Shown here piece by piece: positions 10,262 to 40,268 of a stretch of 64,000 nucleotides of DNA (its first letter is position 1; every line of letters starts with the position of its first letter). Both the position numbers and the translations under genes were made by a program. This DNA is from Actinospica robiniae DSM 44927. Lineage in GTDB: Bacteria; Actinomycetota; Actinomycetes; Streptomycetales; Catenulisporaceae. Below the pieces are notes generated by a model. It was not told the origin of the DNA. It was given only the letters and a program-made list of their open reading frames with translations, and did not search any database. Where the stretch lies: assembly GCF_000504285.1 (NCBI RefSeq), contig NZ_KI632511.1, positions 5,562,154 through 5,626,153 on the forward strand. Reading direction: 5' to 3'.

Positions 10262-10292
10262 CGCGTCCGCGGCCGGGCCGGAGGGAAAACCT

Positions 10293-33770: not shown

Positions 33771-34277
33771 TCAAAGCAGCTTTAGCATGCGGGTGTTGCC
33801 GAGCGTATTCGGCTTGACGCGCTCGAGATCCAAGAACTCCGCGATACCCTCGTCGGCCGAGCGAAGGAGCTCCACCGCCACCCCGGGATCGACCCCGGAC
33901 TCGTCGAGCTCGGTGAAACCGTGGCCGGCGAAGAAGCGCGTCTCAAAGGTCAGACAGAACACCCGGCGGACCCCGAGCCAGCCCGCGGTGGCCAAAAGCT
34001 TTTCCAGAATCGCGTGGCCCACCCCGCTGCCGCGAAACTCGGGGCCGACCGCGATCGTGCGCACTTCGGCGAGGTCGCGCCACATCACATGCAGCGCGCC
34101 GCACCCGGCCACCGCCCCGTCGGCATCCCGCTCGGCCACCCAGAACTCCTGAATGTCCTCAAAGAGCGTTACTGTGGGTTTGTCGAGAAGAATCCGATCG
34201 GCGGCGTAGTGGTCGATCAGTCGCCTGATGGCGGGCACGTCGCCGGTGCGGGCCCGGCGTACCGTCACGTCGTTCAC
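33771..34277 (-). CDS. GNAT amino-acid N-acetyltransferase (short NAGS type)
   Basis: The 168-aa single GNAT domain has the acetyl-CoA motif EFRGSGVGHAILEKLLA and the FCLTFETRFFAGHGFTELD segment of short N-acetylglutamate synthases (ArgA-like, as in mycobacteria). It would make N-acetylglutamate for arginine synthesis. The start GTG 34277 overlaps the M48 protease stop by 4 nt (GTGA), which indicates coupling; GTG 34268 is possible. Confidence 0.87.
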   Translation of the reverse strand: MNDVTVRRARTGDVPAIRRLIDHYAADRILLDKPTVTLFEDIQEFWVAERDADGAVAGCGALHVMWRDLAEVRTIAVGPEFRGSGVGHAILEKLLATAGWLGVRRVFCLTFETRFFAGHGFTELDESGVDPGVAVELLRSADEGIAEFLDLERVKPNTLGNTRMLKLL

Positions 34278-35287
34278 GGCAGCAGGGTACGGGAGCTTTC
34301 GCTCCGGCCCCGACCCCTGCCCTGCGGCGGCACCGCGGCGGGCGCCGCATCGAGCCGGGCGATGATCGCGGCCATCCGGCGCTCCAGCGGCGGATGGGTG
34401 GGGCGGGCCTCGCGCGCCGCGGCGTGCCGGGCCCGGCGCGGGCCGGGGACCAGCGGGGCGACGGCCGCCGGGGCGGCGCAGGCCTCGAACCAGCGCAGCG
34501 CGCTGAGCAGCTCGGCGCCGAAGCCGAGGTCCACCGCGTACGCGTCGACCTGGTACTCGGCCTCCCGGCCGGCCGCGTTCTTGACCGCGAAGGCGACGAC
34601 GCCCGGCGCCGCGAACGCCAGCCGCAGCCCGGCCTCGAGCCGGCCCGCCGCGATCAGGGCCCAGCGGCGGGCCCCGAAGCCGCGCTCGGTCCGGCGCAGG
34701 TGCCGGCCCAGCCGGGCGAAGGGCAGCGCCAGGCCCGAGCCGAGCAGCGCGAGGGCCTGGAGCGGCAGCAGCACCCAGACCAGGAAGGCCGCGGCGGCGG
34801 TGTGCATGCGCAGGTGGTGGCCGAGCTCGTGGGCGAGCACGCCGGCCAGCTCCCGGTCGCCGAGCTCGGCCAGGGCGCCGGTGGTCACGCAGATCAGGTC
34901 GCGTCCGACGCAGTGCGCGTTGACGTCGGCCAGGTCCACCACCCAGATCCGGAAGCGCCGCTCGGACACCGCGGCGCGGCGCAGCACCCGGGACCAGACC
35001 AGGTCCAGCCGCTCGCGCTCGGCCGCGGTCGGCCGGCGCACCGGCCACAGCAGCCGGGCCAGCGCCAGCTGCACCGGACGCAGCCCGTAGAGTCCGGCCG
35101 AGCAGGCCCAGACGGTGTAGCCGAGGCTCAGCGGAACGCCGGCCAGCCTCAGCGGCCAGAGCAGGGGCAGCAGGCTGAGCGCGGCCAGCGGCGCGAAGAG
35201 CACGACCAGGCCGAGGGACAGCAGCGCGGTCCGGTCCGGCCGCGGGCCGCCCTCGGTCGAGAAACCGCGCAGCACCACACGTCGCAC
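34274..35287 (-). CDS. M48-family membrane metalloprotease
   Basis: The frame is open to 35479, but G/C-rich coding with hydrophobic segments begins near GTG 35287 (or 35278). The roughly 337-aa protein has two N-terminal membrane segments, the zinc motif AHELGHHLRMH, two more hydrophobic segments (FLVWVLLPLQALALLGSGLA and FAAPGVVAFAV), and a later Glu in AGREAEYQVDAYA as third zinc ligand. It resembles HtpX/Ste24-type proteases that act on membrane proteins. It overlaps the acetyltransferase gene by 4 nt. Confidence 0.82.
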   Translation of the reverse strand: MRRVVLRGFSTEGGPRPDRTALLSLGLVVLFAPLAALSLLPLLWPLRLAGVPLSLGYTVWACSAGLYGLRPVQLALARLLWPVRRPTAAERERLDLVWSRVLRRAAVSERRFRIWVVDLADVNAHCVGRDLICVTTGALAELGDRELAGVLAHELGHHLRMHTAAAAFLVWVLLPLQALALLGSGLALPFARLGRHLRRTERGFGARRWALIAAGRLEAGLRLAFAAPGVVAFAVKNAAGREAEYQVDAYAVDLGFGAELLSALRWFEACAAPAAVAPLVPGPRRARHAAAREARPTHPPLERRMAAIIARLDAAPAAVPPQGRGRGRSESSRTLLP

Positions 35288-35429
35288 TCTGGCAGTTTCC
35301 GGCCACCGTGCCCATCCGCCGCGCGGGTGATGGGCCGGGAAATCCTTCGAACCGACCAGGAATGCCCGACCGTCAAGGCGAACTCGCGCCGCGGAAATGG
35401 CAATTGCGGCCCTCGGCGCGCGGCGCGGC

Positions 35430-36617
35430 TCAGTCGAACTGGTCGGTGGCCACGGCCTCCGGCGGAGTGCCGGCGTCAACCAGCTCGGCCCGGCAGAAAT
35501 CGATCAGCACACTGGGTCCGACCAACACCGCCGCGGACCACGGGTGTTCCGGGGCGAGCACTTCCCGGGCGGTTTGCGGCAGCCGGCTCTCCGCCGTCGT
35601 CAGCACCGTCATCGCGCCGTGGCGCCGGGCCAGATCCTCGAAGTGCTCGGCCAGATAATGGCGCGATTCGAATCCGGGCGTGGGGTCTTCGACCACGAGC
35701 AGGACGCACAGTTCGCGTTCGTCGCCGGCGTTCACCAATTCCTGCACCAGTCCGGCCACCGGCGCGGCGCCGGTGCCGTGGGCGACCGCGACGAGCCGTT
35801 CGGCGCCGTCCGCGAATCCGAGGTCGCCCTCGGCGCCGGCGATGCGCATCCGGTCTCCGATGGCGGTCTCGTGCACCAGCAGCCGGCTCAGCCCCCCGGT
35901 CCGGCCGGCCTGGATGTGGAAGTCGACCAGGTTATCGTCGCAGTCCACCGAGGCGAAGGAGAAATCGCGCCACACCCGCGGATTGTCGGCCGACTCGAGG
36001 CCCGCGTACTGGCCGGCCCGGTAGTTGTAGGGCCCCGGCCGGTCCGGGTCCTGCAGCACCCGCACGCGCAGCCGGGCGATGTCCGGGGAGATCAGCTCGT
36101 GCTCGATCACCTCGGCCTCCCAGTACGGCGGGGCCAGCGCCTCGGCCTCGGCCGCGCACTCCTGCATGACGCTGGCGACCAGGCCGAACCCGGCCTCCCA
36201 GGCCACCCGGGTGCGGTCGGTGAAGGCGGGCCCGGTGAACGCCTCGACGGTGGCGATCATCGAGTCGCCGAACGCGATGTAGTGCGCCGGACGCAGCGCG
36301 AACTTGCGGTGGCGCAGCGCGAGGCGGCGCAGGTAGGGCAGGAAGGCGTCGAGGTCGTCGAAGTCCGCGATCATCCGGGACACGGCCTGGAACAGCCGGC
36401 GCTGCTGGAGCGCCGGGTCGCCGGAGAAGATCTTGCGGTAGCGCGGATTGTGGGCGAAGAAGTGCTCGTAGAACCAGGCCGCGGCCTGCGGCGCGTGCGG
36501 CTCGATCAGCGCGAAGGATTCCCGGATCTCGGCCAGTAGCTCGTAGTCGTAGTCCTCGACCCCGCTTAGCATGTTGTCCGCCGCCGTTGCCGCATCCATC
36601 GCCACCACGTCACTCAC
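35430..36617 (-). CDS. flavohemoglobin-like protein
   Basis: The roughly 395-aa protein joins a globin domain (about 1-145; proximal histidine region RRLALRHRKFALRPAHYIAFGDSM) to a ferredoxin reductase-like module with the FAD motif RDFSFAS and the NAD-binding GTGAAPVAGLVQ. Flavohemoglobins turn nitric oxide into nitrate. GTG 36617 was chosen as start; ATG 36599 is the alternative. It lies next to the cytochrome bd genes but is separated by a terminator. Overall similarity to classic Hmp is moderate, so it may belong to the actinobacterial divergent class. Confidence 0.85.
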   Translation of the reverse strand: MSDVVAMDAATAADNMLSGVEDYDYELLAEIRESFALIEPHAPQAAAWFYEHFFAHNPRYRKIFSGDPALQQRRLFQAVSRMIADFDDLDAFLPYLRRLALRHRKFALRPAHYIAFGDSMIATVEAFTGPAFTDRTRVAWEAGFGLVASVMQECAAEAEALAPPYWEAEVIEHELISPDIARLRVRVLQDPDRPGPYNYRAGQYAGLESADNPRVWRDFSFASVDCDDNLVDFHIQAGRTGGLSRLLVHETAIGDRMRIAGAEGDLGFADGAERLVAVAHGTGAAPVAGLVQELVNAGDERELCVLLVVEDPTPGFESRHYLAEHFEDLARRHGAMTVLTTAESRLPQTAREVLAPEHPWSAAVLVGPSVLIDFCRAELVDAGTPPEAVATDQFD

Positions 36618-36677
36618 CCGGGTGAGCTTACCGGTAACCCCATGCGCTCCGGACGGGGGAGGCCGCAAGCGCGACCG

Positions 36678-36717: not shown

Positions 36718-37728
36718 TCAGTGCTCTTCCAGCACCGGCGCGGTGAACACTCTGAGCAGGTAGAAGAACGACGGGATGACCACGGCCATGCCCGCGACCA
36801 TGGCCACCACCATGGCGTCCAGGCTGGACGGCGCGGCCGCGGCCTGCTGCGCGGTGTACCGGCCGACCAGCAGATCAGGGTACTGCGCCACCGCCCAGCC
36901 GCCGAGGACGCCGACCACCGCGGCCGCGGCCGTCACCCGGGCCAGCAGGAACCGCTGCCGCCACAGCACCGCGAGGCTGCCGAAGCCGCACAGCGCGGAG
37001 AATGCGGCGAGCGGTAGGGAGCGGTCGGTGAAGCGGTGCGCGACCACCGGGGCGTCGTGGTAGAAGAACGGCAGCATCACCAGCACGACCAGTCCGGAGG
37101 CCACCGCCGCGCCGATGGCCTTGCGCCGGAAGACCGCCACCAGGTGGTGCGTATCAGGCTGCTGCGCCGCGTCGTAGCAGAGGTAGACCGCCGCGAGGAA
37201 CGCCGTGACGACCACCGCGAGCAGGCCGGCCAGCACCGTGAACGGGCTCTGGAACGGCACCAGCGGCGAAGTGCCCGGCCGAAGCTTGCCGGTGGCCAGG
37301 GCGGCGCCGCTCACGCCCAGCATGAACGGGGTGAGCACGGAGGCACAGGCGAAGATCCGGCTCCACCACTGGTCCGGCAGTGAAGCGCCCTCGCCGTAAG
37401 CGCGGTAGACGTACGCCGCACCCCGCAGCACGATGCCCACCAGGGCGAGCGCGAGCGGCAGTTCGAGAGACGTGGCGATGTCGCCGAAAGCCGCGGGGAA
37501 GGCCGAGAAGGTGCAGACGATCACGAAGATCAGCCACACGTGGTTGGCCTCCCACACCGGCCCGAGCGAGGCGGAGATCAGCTTCCGCTGATCCTCCGCG
37601 CCGTCCTTGGCCTTTCCCGTGCCCGCCAGCAGATCCCACGCGCCGCCGCCGAAGTCGGCGCCGGCCAGCAGGGCGTAGGCGAGCAGGGCGAGGATGATCA
37701 CGACGAGCATGAGGTTGACGGCGGTCAT
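36718..37728 (-). CDS. cydB: cytochrome bd oxidase subunit II
   Basis: The 336-aa protein with about eight membrane helices starts MTAVNLMLVVIILALLAYALLAGADFGGGAWDLLAG, the conserved CydB beginning, and has SLGPVWEANHVWLIF. It pairs with CydA in the high-affinity quinol oxidase used at low oxygen or under nitric oxide and sulfide stress. Its ATG overlaps the cydA stop by 4 nt. No cydCD genes follow. Confidence 0.95.
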   Translation of the reverse strand: MTAVNLMLVVIILALLAYALLAGADFGGGAWDLLAGTGKAKDGAEDQRKLISASLGPVWEANHVWLIFVIVCTFSAFPAAFGDIATSLELPLALALVGIVLRGAAYVYRAYGEGASLPDQWWSRIFACASVLTPFMLGVSGAALATGKLRPGTSPLVPFQSPFTVLAGLLAVVVTAFLAAVYLCYDAAQQPDTHHLVAVFRRKAIGAAVASGLVVLVMLPFFYHDAPVVAHRFTDRSLPLAAFSALCGFGSLAVLWRQRFLLARVTAAAAVVGVLGGWAVAQYPDLLVGRYTAQQAAAAPSSLDAMVVAMVAGMAVVIPSFFYLLRVFTAPVLEEH

Positions 37729-39104
37729 GCCAGGACCTCTTCTGCTTGGGGTGCGACGGGTTTCGGTTCGTCCTCGCCGTCCGCGGCGGCGAGCTCGGGC
37801 GGCGCGCCGGTGGCGAGCTTGCGCAGGATCAGCAGCAGCGCCACGGCCAGGCCGACGTAGATCAGGATCGTGACGACCACGCTCCAGCCCAGGCCGCCGC
37901 TCTTGGAAGCCGCGTCCGCCACCAGCATCCGGCCGTAGACGATCCACGGCTGGCGCCCGCCCTCGGTGACCTCCCAGCCGCCGAGCATGGCCACGGCGGA
38001 GGCCGGACCGGTCAGGATCGCGGCCCACAGCCAGAACTTCGTGTGCGGGATGCGCGGGCTCAGACCCTTGCGACGGCGCTGCCACCAGGTGAGCGCCGCC
38101 AGCCCGGCGATCGCGAACACCAGCATGCCGCAGCCGACCATGGAGTCGAAGGCCAGGTGCACCACCGCCACCGGCGGAGTGTCGGCCACCGTGGTGGTGT
38201 CCAGACCGGTCACCTTGGTGTTCGGGCTGTAGCCGAGCAGCATCGAGAGCCCGTCCGGCACCGGGATCCCGAGGATCATCTTGTGCGTGTGCTGATCGTA
38301 GAAGCCGCCGATGGTCAGCGGGACGTGCGTGCCGGTCTGGTAGACGCCCTCCATGGAGGCGAGCTTGAGCGGCTGTGTGGTGGCCACGACCCGGGCCGAC
38401 CAGTCGCCGAGGAACATCTGCACCGGGGTGAGCCCGAGTACCGTCCACAGGCCCACGTTCAGGCCCAGCCGGTGATATCGGTCACGCCGGCCGCGCAGCA
38501 TGCCGCAGGCGTAGACCGCGGCCACCGCGCCGCCGGTGCACATCATGGCCGCCACGAACATGTGCGTGACCTCGGACCAGCCGGCCGAGCTGCGGAAGAT
38601 CGCGAGCGGGTCGGCGGTGATCCGCCCGTGGCTCACCCCGATCCCGACCGGATCGTTCATCCACGAGTTGGCGAAGACGATGAAAAGCGTGGAGAGTGTG
38701 CCGGAGATGGCGATCGGCCAGAGGGTGAGCCAGTGCGCCCGCGGGGTCAGCCGCTTCCAGCCGTAGAGGTAGAGGCCCATGAAGATGGCCTCGAGGAAGA
38801 AGGCGAAGGCCTCGAGCGTGAACAGCAGCCCGATGGCGCCGCCGTAGGTGGCCATGAAAGTGGGCCACAGCAGGCCGAACTCGAACGAGAGCACGGTGCC
38901 GGAGACGGCGCCGATGGCGAAGAGCACGGCGCCGACCCGGGCCCACTTGCGGGTCAGCGCGTACCACGAGGCGTCCCCGGTCTTGAGCCAGCGCCCCTCG
39001 GTGTAGAGCAGGAGCCAGGGCATGCCGACGCCGAAGACGGCGAAGAGAATGTGGAAGGAGAGCGAGAAAGCGGTCTCGATGCGTGCCGCGTCCACTCCGG
39101 ACAT
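37725..39104 (-). CDS. cydA: cytochrome bd oxidase subunit I
   Basis: The 459-aa protein has the N-terminal haem ligand region FHILFAVFGVGMPW, the paired glutamates in LEAFAFFLEAIFMGLYLYGW, and GRQPWIVYGRM. The Q loop is of the short type. It oxidises menaquinol and reduces oxygen at the membrane. Its promoter region is shared with a divergent BlaI-type regulator, and a 17-bp palindrome (39120-39136) lies 16 bp from its ATG. Confidence 0.96.
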   Translation of the reverse strand: MSGVDAARIETAFSLSFHILFAVFGVGMPWLLLYTEGRWLKTGDASWYALTRKWARVGAVLFAIGAVSGTVLSFEFGLLWPTFMATYGGAIGLLFTLEAFAFFLEAIFMGLYLYGWKRLTPRAHWLTLWPIAISGTLSTLFIVFANSWMNDPVGIGVSHGRITADPLAIFRSSAGWSEVTHMFVAAMMCTGGAVAAVYACGMLRGRRDRYHRLGLNVGLWTVLGLTPVQMFLGDWSARVVATTQPLKLASMEGVYQTGTHVPLTIGGFYDQHTHKMILGIPVPDGLSMLLGYSPNTKVTGLDTTTVADTPPVAVVHLAFDSMVGCGMLVFAIAGLAALTWWQRRRKGLSPRIPHTKFWLWAAILTGPASAVAMLGGWEVTEGGRQPWIVYGRMLVADAASKSGGLGWSVVVTILIYVGLAVALLLILRKLATGAPPELAAADGEDEPKPVAPQAEEVLA

Positions 39105-39119
39105 GCGGATCCACCTATC

Positions 39120-39136
39120 TTCTACGTACCGTAGAA
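39120..39136. promoter_or_regulatory. palindromic operator between cydA and blaI-type gene
   Basis: TTCTACG-TAC-CGTAGAA is a perfect dyad. It has the TAC...GTA character of BlaI/MecI operators and lies 16 bp from cydA and 28 bp from the regulator gene. A TAGAGT -10-like element (39151-39156) follows, seven bases before the regulator ATG, so that transcript may be leaderless. Confidence 0.7.
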
Positions 39137-39163
39137 CTTTCTTTCATCGGTAGAGTAGACCTC

Positions 39164-39514
39164 ATGGCACGGCTAGGGGAACTCGAACGCGCGGTGATGG
39201 ACGTGCTCTGGAACACACCGGAGCCCGTACCCGCCACACTGATCTGCGACGTACTGCCGCGCGAGCACGCGCCGGCGGTGACCACGATCCTCACGGTTCT
39301 GGATCGTCTCGGCGCCAAGGGCTTCGTCACCCGGGTCCGGCAGGGCCGCGCCTACCGCTATTCGGCCACCACGACCAAGGCCGAGCTGATCGCGAACACG
39401 ATGCTCGAAGCCCTCGGCACCACCTCGGATCGGCGCTCGGCCCTGGTGCACTTCGCCGGAGCCGTCTCCGAAGAGGAGAAGGCCGTCCTGCGCGAACTGC
39501 TCGCCAGCGGCTGA
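39164..39514 (+). CDS. BlaI/MecI/CopY-family repressor
   Basis: The 116-aa protein has the winged-helix pattern LGELERAVMDVLW...AVTTILTVLDRLGAKGFVTRVRQGRAYRYSA of BlaI-type repressors, followed by a dimerisation helix region. Such repressors are usually inactivated by cleavage triggered by a membrane M56 protease, encoded next (39522-40268). The start ATG 39164 fits the family N terminus. The shared palindrome suggests that it represses both its own operon and cydAB. Confidence 0.9.
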   Translation: MARLGELERAVMDVLWNTPEPVPATLICDVLPREHAPAVTTILTVLDRLGAKGFVTRVRQGRAYRYSATTTKAELIANTMLEALGTTSDRRSALVHFAGAVSEEEKAVLRELLASG

Positions 39515-39521
39515 GCGGGGG

Positions 39522-40268
39522 ATGGTCTCCGTCCTCGCGGCCCTGGCCGCGTTCATCTCCGTGGTACTGGCCTGGCCGGTGCCCGAGCGCCTGTCCCGGG
39601 CCGCCTGGCCGAGCCGGCACCCGAAACGGGCCATCGCGCTGTGGCAGGCCGTGGGCCTGCTCGGCGGCCTGAGCGCGGTCGGCTGCCTGCTGCTGCTCGG
39701 CTTCGACCCCCTCGGCCGGGACTGGACCCTGCTGAACCTGGTCGGACTGGCCGGCGCCGCGGTGCTGCTGACCTGGCTGCTCGGCGTGCTGCTGACCAAC
39801 ACCATCCGGATCGAGCGGCAGCTGCGGCGCCAGCGCGACGCGGTGGACCTGCTGTCCTGGATCGACGACGACGGCGTCCTCGTGCTCGATCATCCGGAGC
39901 CGGCCGCCTACTGCCTGCCCGGCCCGCGCCCGCGGATCGTGGTGACGCACGGGGCGATCGCGAGCCTCGGACCGGAAGAGCTCGCCGCGGTCCTCGCGCA
40001 CGAGCGGGCCCACGCCGTCGGGCGGCACGAGCTGATCATCCAGCCGTTCGTGGCCTGGGAATCCGCGCTGCCGTTCCTGCCGCCGGCCCACCGGGCCACC
40101 GCGGCCGTGGCCGAACTCGTGGAGATGCTGGCCGACGACGCCGCGGCCCTGGCCACCAGCCCGCGCGCGCTCGCCCGGGCACTGGCCCAGGTCGGCTCGG
40201 ACCGGCTGCCGTCGGACGGCACGGCTCCGGCCTCGGTACTGCCCCGGGTGCGCCGGCTGGTGCAGTAG
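39522..40268 (+). CDS. M56-family membrane metalloprotease
   Basis: The 248-aa protein has three N-terminal membrane segments, then the zinc motif AHERAHAVGRHE, and a fourth hydrophobic part. It is the BlaR1-type protease core without an extracellular sensor domain. Paired with the BlaI-type gene (7 nt apart), it probably relieves repression by cleaving the repressor or an adaptor. The signal sensed is unknown. Confidence 0.88.
   Translation: MVSVLAALAAFISVVLAWPVPERLSRAAWPSRHPKRAIALWQAVGLLGGLSAVGCLLLLGFDPLGRDWTLLNLVGLAGAAVLLTWLLGVLLTNTIRIERQLRRQRDAVDLLSWIDDDGVLVLDHPEPAAYCLPGPRPRIVVTHGAIASLGPEELAAVLAHERAHAVGRHELIIQPFVAWESALPFLPPAHRATAAVAELVEMLADDAAALATSPRALARALAQVGSDRLPSDGTAPASVLPRVRRLVQ

Follow-up and report, generated by a model that had tools for sequence, protein, structure and literature searches.

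In Actinospica robiniae DSM 44927, the genes of a cytochrome bd oxidase (cydAB) lie back to back with a gene pair encoding a BlaI/MecI-type repressor and an M56-type membrane zinc protease, and the short gap between them holds a palindrome (dyad) that accompanies close orthologues of the repressor across the class. Comparison of these sequences strongly supports a scheme in which the repressor–protease pair would control cydAB through the dyad, and suggests that the pair may switch on this backup oxidase once normal respiration is failing. The window, that is, the whole stretch of 64,000 nucleotides that was analysed, belongs to a single-contig genome of 9.92 Mb.

The cydA–blaI locus and its dyad

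The CydA and CydB profiles were both matched, which identifies the gene pair as a cytochrome bd oxidase, and the names that the original prediction had given to cydA and its BlaI-type neighbour held up against PF01654 and PF03965 (Table 1). The repressor, P0001, scores 77.8 bits over residues 4–114, where the PF03965 gathering score is 22.6, and so belongs to this family; its sole match in the PDB is 2g9w_A (E 4.7e-20), which we take to be M. tuberculosis BlaI. The oxidase genes point away from the blaI–M56 pair across a gap of 59 bp. In total, the genome has four CydA-family matches (G000:C1:1594773, 2930299, 2964564 and 5599962), and only the copy in the window carries the dyad. Beyond cydB lies a flavohaemoglobin-like gene, a probable further member of the group, matched by a model for NO-inducible flavohaemoproteins. 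Hmp relatives of this gene carry the dyad in other genomes. It is followed by an M48-like membrane protease reading frame, and a protease-like match occupies the equivalent position in three other loci (L037, L038 and L039).

Table 1. Features of the locus in window coordinates
Feature	Position	Strand	Basis
cydA, cytochrome bd oxidase subunit I	37725..39104	-	PF01654, E 2.2e-126
cydB, cytochrome bd oxidase subunit II	36718..37728	-	PF02322, E 1.8e-61
blaI, BlaI/MecI-type winged-helix repressor P0001, 116 aa	39164..39514	+	PF03965, E 1.1e-21
M56-type membrane zinc protease P0002, 248 aa, sensorless, HERAH, Cys131	39522..40268	+	PF01435 41 bits; PF05569 23.9 bits; BlaR1 fold match
Putative operator dyad TTCTACG-TAC-CGTAGAA	39120..39136	.	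Sequence scan and conservation
Likely -10 hexamer TAGAGT of blaI	39151..39156	+	7 nt before ATG; aligned upstreams
Flavohaemoglobin-like gene beyond cydB, probably also a member of the group	35430..36668	-	NF009805, E 2.8e-25, below cut-off; kept in L037–L039
M48-like membrane zinc protease reading frame (HELGHH)	34274..35479	-	

The gap does contain the predicted perfect inverted repeat, a 7+3+7 palindrome with the sequence TTCTACGTACCGTAGAA, and this is the only match at two or fewer mismatches within the window. The distances first given for it, 16 bp from cydA and 28 bp from blaI, are right as positions and wrong as gaps, which are 15 bases to the cydA start codon and 27 to the blaI ATG. 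The dyad spans the -35 region of blaI, and its centre lies 24 nt before the cydA ATG. A sigma-70 scan found no consensus promoter, and the blaI start is probably leaderless. A single palindrome is weak evidence on its own because the window holds 142 palindromes with arms of at least 7, and, when the 59-bp gap was shuffled 20,000 times, 225 of the results contained such a palindrome. As judged from the comparisons below, the dyad is a conserved footprint, and it is this conservation that makes it real.

Genome-wide, a degenerate form of the dyad has two matches, the window's own and a second at a SCO1/SenC gene (G000:C1:5858156); the search had been proposed with ATP synthase as an example, and no exact dyad was found there. 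Of two other genomes of the same genus, one retains the SCO1 site with 13 of 14 positions matching and the second does not. At three mismatches the scan returns background (364 matches against 349 for the control), and a site with one mismatch (G000:C1:7990036) was taken as chance since it falls inside a predicted reading frame.

Conservation across the class

With only the BlaI protein as query, a search of the GTDB species genomes found 11 named loci. Divergent cydAB adjoins blaI in eight of them (two Actinospica, one Actinocrinis, three Catenulispora, a metagenome-assembled genome (MAG) named Frankia alni, and Mycetocola) and is not beside blaI in the other three (Prescottella, Rhodococcus and Saccharothrix). 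At the Frankia locus, the M56 gene would lie beyond the contig end. All eight cyd-linked loci carry the dyad, seven as a single TTCTACR-N3-YGTAGAA; Mycetocola has three dyad-like sites, two of which fit this form and one of which is related. In the window's own family, the exact dyad stands between cydA and blaI–M56 in 14 of 14 genomes.

Counted by eye, 58 of the 118 genomes with a good BlaI orthologue have a divergent blaI and cydA within 2.3 kb, and 60 lack this arrangement. By family, it occurs in f1 (1/1), f4 (2/2), f37 (9/9), f19 (18/25), f20 (17/17), f27 (7/8), f29, f43 and f44 (1/1 each), f18 (1/27), f38 (0/2) and f5 (0/24); in both f38 genomes, blaI and cydA are same-direction neighbours.

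Does the dyad travel with the repressor? Among 296 genomes of the class, exact matches to the degenerate dyad TTCTACRNNNYGTAGAA number 72 in 36 genomes, against 11 in 11 for the reversed control pattern; one near-miss (L079) was left out of the dyad counts. Orthologues were ranked with a BlaI profile (A4) built only from the cyd-linked loci and the window, and chosen blind to the dyad; it was preferred to profile A3 because some rows of the latter came from dyad loci, which would make the count circular. With A4, 37 genomes score at least 135.4 bits and the next one 133.2, and a second profile sets apart the same 37 (166.8 vs 144.1 bits). The dyad occurs in 35 of these 37 genomes vs 1 of the 259 others (Fisher 6e-42, which overstates the association and is not an error probability because the genomes share ancestry). 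An exact dyad is missing from two genomes with the orthologue, G017 and G138. The lone dyad outside the orthologue set (L108, in G098) lies between a different BlaI gene and a gene for a DUF347 membrane protein. In 27 genomes of family f2, which belong to the window's order, neither the dyad nor a BlaI match at 1e-30 was found.

Genes adjoining the dyad

Of the 72 dyads, 67 fall into 59 fetched regions; the five outside are the window's own and those on G072:C2, G181:C477, G251:C224 and G251:C469. The regions were sorted by Pfam and NCBIfam matches of representatives and by BLAST for the rest. The largest class is cydA itself (22 regions), followed by CopC alone or together with a CopD-CtaG fusion (7), a small membrane protein (4), HemE (3), the flavohaemoglobin Hmp (3), HemQ-HemH (2), TlpA/ResA-like thioredoxins (2), and SCO1, CydDC, a different BlaI with DUF347 and a PNPOx-like protein (1 each). 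The small membrane protein (116–143 aa; L092, L094, L101 and L137) lies 9–16 bp from the dyad and twice precedes CopC and CopD-CtaG; the one copy that was scanned has no Pfam match. In 12 of the 59 regions the dyad has no evident respiratory role. Four dyads lie at a FAD hydroxylase (L091, L103, L105 and L106), four at an alpha/beta hydrolase–TetR pair (L087, L089, L107 and L119), and four in the gap between SnoaL or UppP and BCKDH genes, all in one family (L086, L088, L122 and L129). In our judgement, 45 of the 59 regions can plausibly be connected with terminal oxidases, with haem, with the delivery of copper or with NO, and the candidate regulon appears to comprise genes of oxidase assembly, haem supply and NO defence.

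These targets bear on the reading that BlaI and its partner form a classic switch for beta-lactams or cell-wall state, with cydAB included by chance. Membership of P0001 in the BlaI family is in line with this, as are excerpts of PMC5473688, in which M. tuberculosis BlaI is reported to regulate blaC and cydAB rises under beta-lactam treatment. On the other hand, P0002 ends at 248 aa and lacks a C-terminal penicillin sensor domain, as originally predicted, and the putative regulon speaks for cytochrome-oxidase assembly, haem, copper and NO instead of the cell wall, which the original prediction had named beside quinone and oxygen as a possible signal. Among the named targets, the sole hint of the cell wall is the UppP region, where the dyad is not directly upstream of UppP. 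We regard the beta-lactam reading as improbable.

A second reading is that the dyad serves only to autoregulate blaI–M56, with cydAB a bystander under another regulator such as Rex or Crp. The dyad keeps nearly the same position with respect to blaI (about -24 in one family) and stands at varying distances from cydA, about 220 bp in the Frankia MAG, and cydAB is controlled elsewhere by Rex (S. coelicolor) or Crp (M. smegmatis), according to excerpts of PMC7739888. The cydA promoters distant from blaI nevertheless argue for cydAB as an independent target, since they keep the dyad, often in tandem, where blaI lies elsewhere. That is, among the 22 fetched regions in which cydA adjoins an exact dyad, blaI is also present in 14 and absent in eight, and all eight stand-alone promoters have a second site at 13 or more of 14 positions, spaced 18–23 bp from the first. 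Where blaI is remote, 15 of 20 cydA promoters match the TACTAC-type pattern TACKACRNNNYGTAGTA at 13 or more of 14 positions (14/16 in f5 and 1/4 in f18; L203, whose cydA start is misplaced, was counted as a miss), a score reached by 3 of 4,000 shuffles. In f5 (L188–L201), the site is slightly asymmetric, often TACTACR-N3-YGTCGTA, and lies about 30–96 bp before cydA. Moreover, the linkage recurs with CydA proteins that are just 26–30% identical. The Rex operator has the consensus TTGTGAANNNNTTCACAA, whose sole match in the window at three or fewer mismatches is at 10292, with none in the cyd region, and a Rex site near cydA was rejected. Rex of Streptomyces does repress cydAB in another actinomycete (excerpts of PMC7739888), although both the protein and its operator are unrelated to those described here. 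For M. smegmatis, the same excerpts consider Crp and PrrA in cydAB control and do not mention BlaI. Taken with the comparative evidence as a whole, and with the cydA dyads that lack an adjacent blaI in particular, the bystander reading is quite improbable, and the claim that the pair governs the bd oxidase via the dyad gains strong, if comparative, support.

The copper genes among the targets (CopC, CopD-CtaG and SCO1) raise a third reading, in which a CopY-like copper-binding repressor acts directly and the M56 gene is incidental. CopY belongs to the same protein family, and CopY_TcrY is the best NCBIfam match of P0001. However, P0001 scores only 38.9 bits against this model (TIGR02698), far under its cut-off of 121.95, and has a single cysteine in place of a cysteine cluster, and all 30 close-orthologue loci have an M56 match next to blaI; this reading is very improbable. 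A symmetric CopY-like pattern, TACNANNTNGTA, was dropped because it has 15 matches per strand in the window's genome, fewer than its control.

Sites at the blaI promoters are consistent with autoregulation. For close orthologues, the 300 bp before blaI hold a site that matches at least 12 of 14 positions in 28 of 30 loci, a score that 49 of 60,000 shuffled upstream sequences reach. Many of these loci, chiefly those of f19, have the right arm of the site overlapping the probable -10 hexamer, with the ATG 6–7 nt further on, an arrangement that suggests leaderless transcription and direct occlusion of the promoter. More distant orthologues have the TACTAC-type dyad in their own promoter in 15 of 20 cases at 12 or more of 14 positions, a count that is fitted because TACKACRNNNYGTAGTA was read off blaI upstreams, while the cydA count above is not. 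That the dyad is instead an RNA hairpin (terminator or attenuator), as a plus-strand scan would have it from the 7-bp stem and T-rich tail, has a negligible chance: the right arm on the likely -10, so close to a leaderless ATG in related genomes, means that the dyad would not be transcribed, tandem copies recur at cydA, and the exact letters track the BlaI orthologue.

The protease and the proposed switch

The sequence profiles of P0002 favour M48: PF01435 is matched above its cut-off, whereas the match to PF05569 (M56/BlaR1) falls short of its own (23.9 vs 31 bits), and its profile finds only M48 structures in the PDB (Ste24p and 3c37). The link to BlaR1 is based on the fold of a predicted model (pLDDT 70, pTM 0.65), whose residues 7–234 match residues 3–296 of S. 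aureus BlaR1 (8exs_A) with Z 10.5 and rmsd 4.3 over 205 residues; ZMPSTE24 and other M48 structures follow closely at 10.1. In this model, N-terminal transmembrane helices join a zinc-protease core with an HExxH motif (HERAH), as in BlaR1. Because M48 proteins score so close, the M56 assignment draws on the fold, the length of the match and the gene partnership together. Among 56 distinct BlaI-linked sequences from 73 loci, 53 have the cysteine of a strand AYC(L/V/I)PG, which lies upstream of HExxH and presumably beside the zinc by analogy with M48 proteases; the sequences were gathered by their similarity to P0002, a choice that favours the Cys form. The other three, from the three named loci without cydA, have serine; every cyd-type copy among those compared has cysteine. 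Two paralogue neighbours in the window's own genome have threonine at this position.

We infer the following mechanism. A BlaI-type dimer would bind the dyad between the divergent promoters and shut off both cydAB and its own blaI–M56 operon. The M56 protein would act as a BlaR1-type membrane zinc protease without an external sensor, activated when the main haem–copper oxidase branch fails, with NO, cyanide, or a lack of copper or haem as likely triggers. The active protease would inactivate the repressor, whose loss would turn on the bd oxidase; in relatives it would also release genes that serve to assemble oxidases, supply haem and remove NO. We hold repression with autoregulation to be very probable and proteolytic release likely, and give a respiratory-failure signal an even chance; dyad-bound repression, M56 release and an oxidase-failure trigger together make a distinctly probable explanation.

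How does this compare with known systems? The pair resembles BlaI-BlaR1/MecI-MecR1 of S. aureus in combining a repressor with a membrane zinc protease of matching fold and differs in its missing sensor and its predicted respiratory targets. The S. aureus-type BlaI/MecI dyad has the core TACA-N2-TGTA, whereas the core here is TACR-N3-YGTA. The nearest precedent is M. tuberculosis BlaI-BlaR (Rv1846c-Rv1845c), likewise a BlaI-type repressor with a sensorless M56 partner: in excerpts of PMC5473688, which cites Sala et al. 2009, BlaI binds the promoters of the bd oxidase and ATP synthase, the mycobacterial BlaR partner has no sensor domain, and bd oxidase is tied to drug tolerance in mycobacteria. 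Excerpts of PMC12565901 add BlaI binding at the promoter of Rv1303, which is co-transcribed with ATP synthase genes. The belief that such control of cydAB with a paired M56 protein had never been described is thus mistaken. In these excerpts, though, the M. tuberculosis pair is known mainly for control of blaC and atp and is not described as divergent from cydAB, nor with the operator, oxidase-assembly regulon and conserved cysteine found here. Titles and abstract openings of open-licence PMC text gave no divergent cydAB–blaI–M56 layout or operator, and PMC10581053 (Brachybacterium) proved a false lead. As far as these partial sources go, the kind of system is already known, and what appears new is the genetic linkage, the operator shared across families, the breadth, the oxidase-assembly regulon and the cysteine.

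A bolder view, which we consider unlikely as a whole, is that BlaI with a sensorless, Cys-bearing M56 protein may be an ancestral actinobacterial switch for respiratory failure. The protease would sense the state of the oxidase branch, and its invariant cysteine next to the zinc site would form a latch, thiol- or metal-based, that NO, oxidation or copper status would open. A single repressor would then coordinate bd oxidase with haem–copper oxidase assembly, the supply of haem and the removal of NO, and the role in beta-lactamase control known from M. tuberculosis would be a side branch. If control of cydAB by the pair is borne out, an externally sensorless protease that controls respiration would raise the question of what is sensed, and actinobacterial BlaI would be recast from a beta-lactamase repressor into a terminal oxidase regulator with a defined operator.
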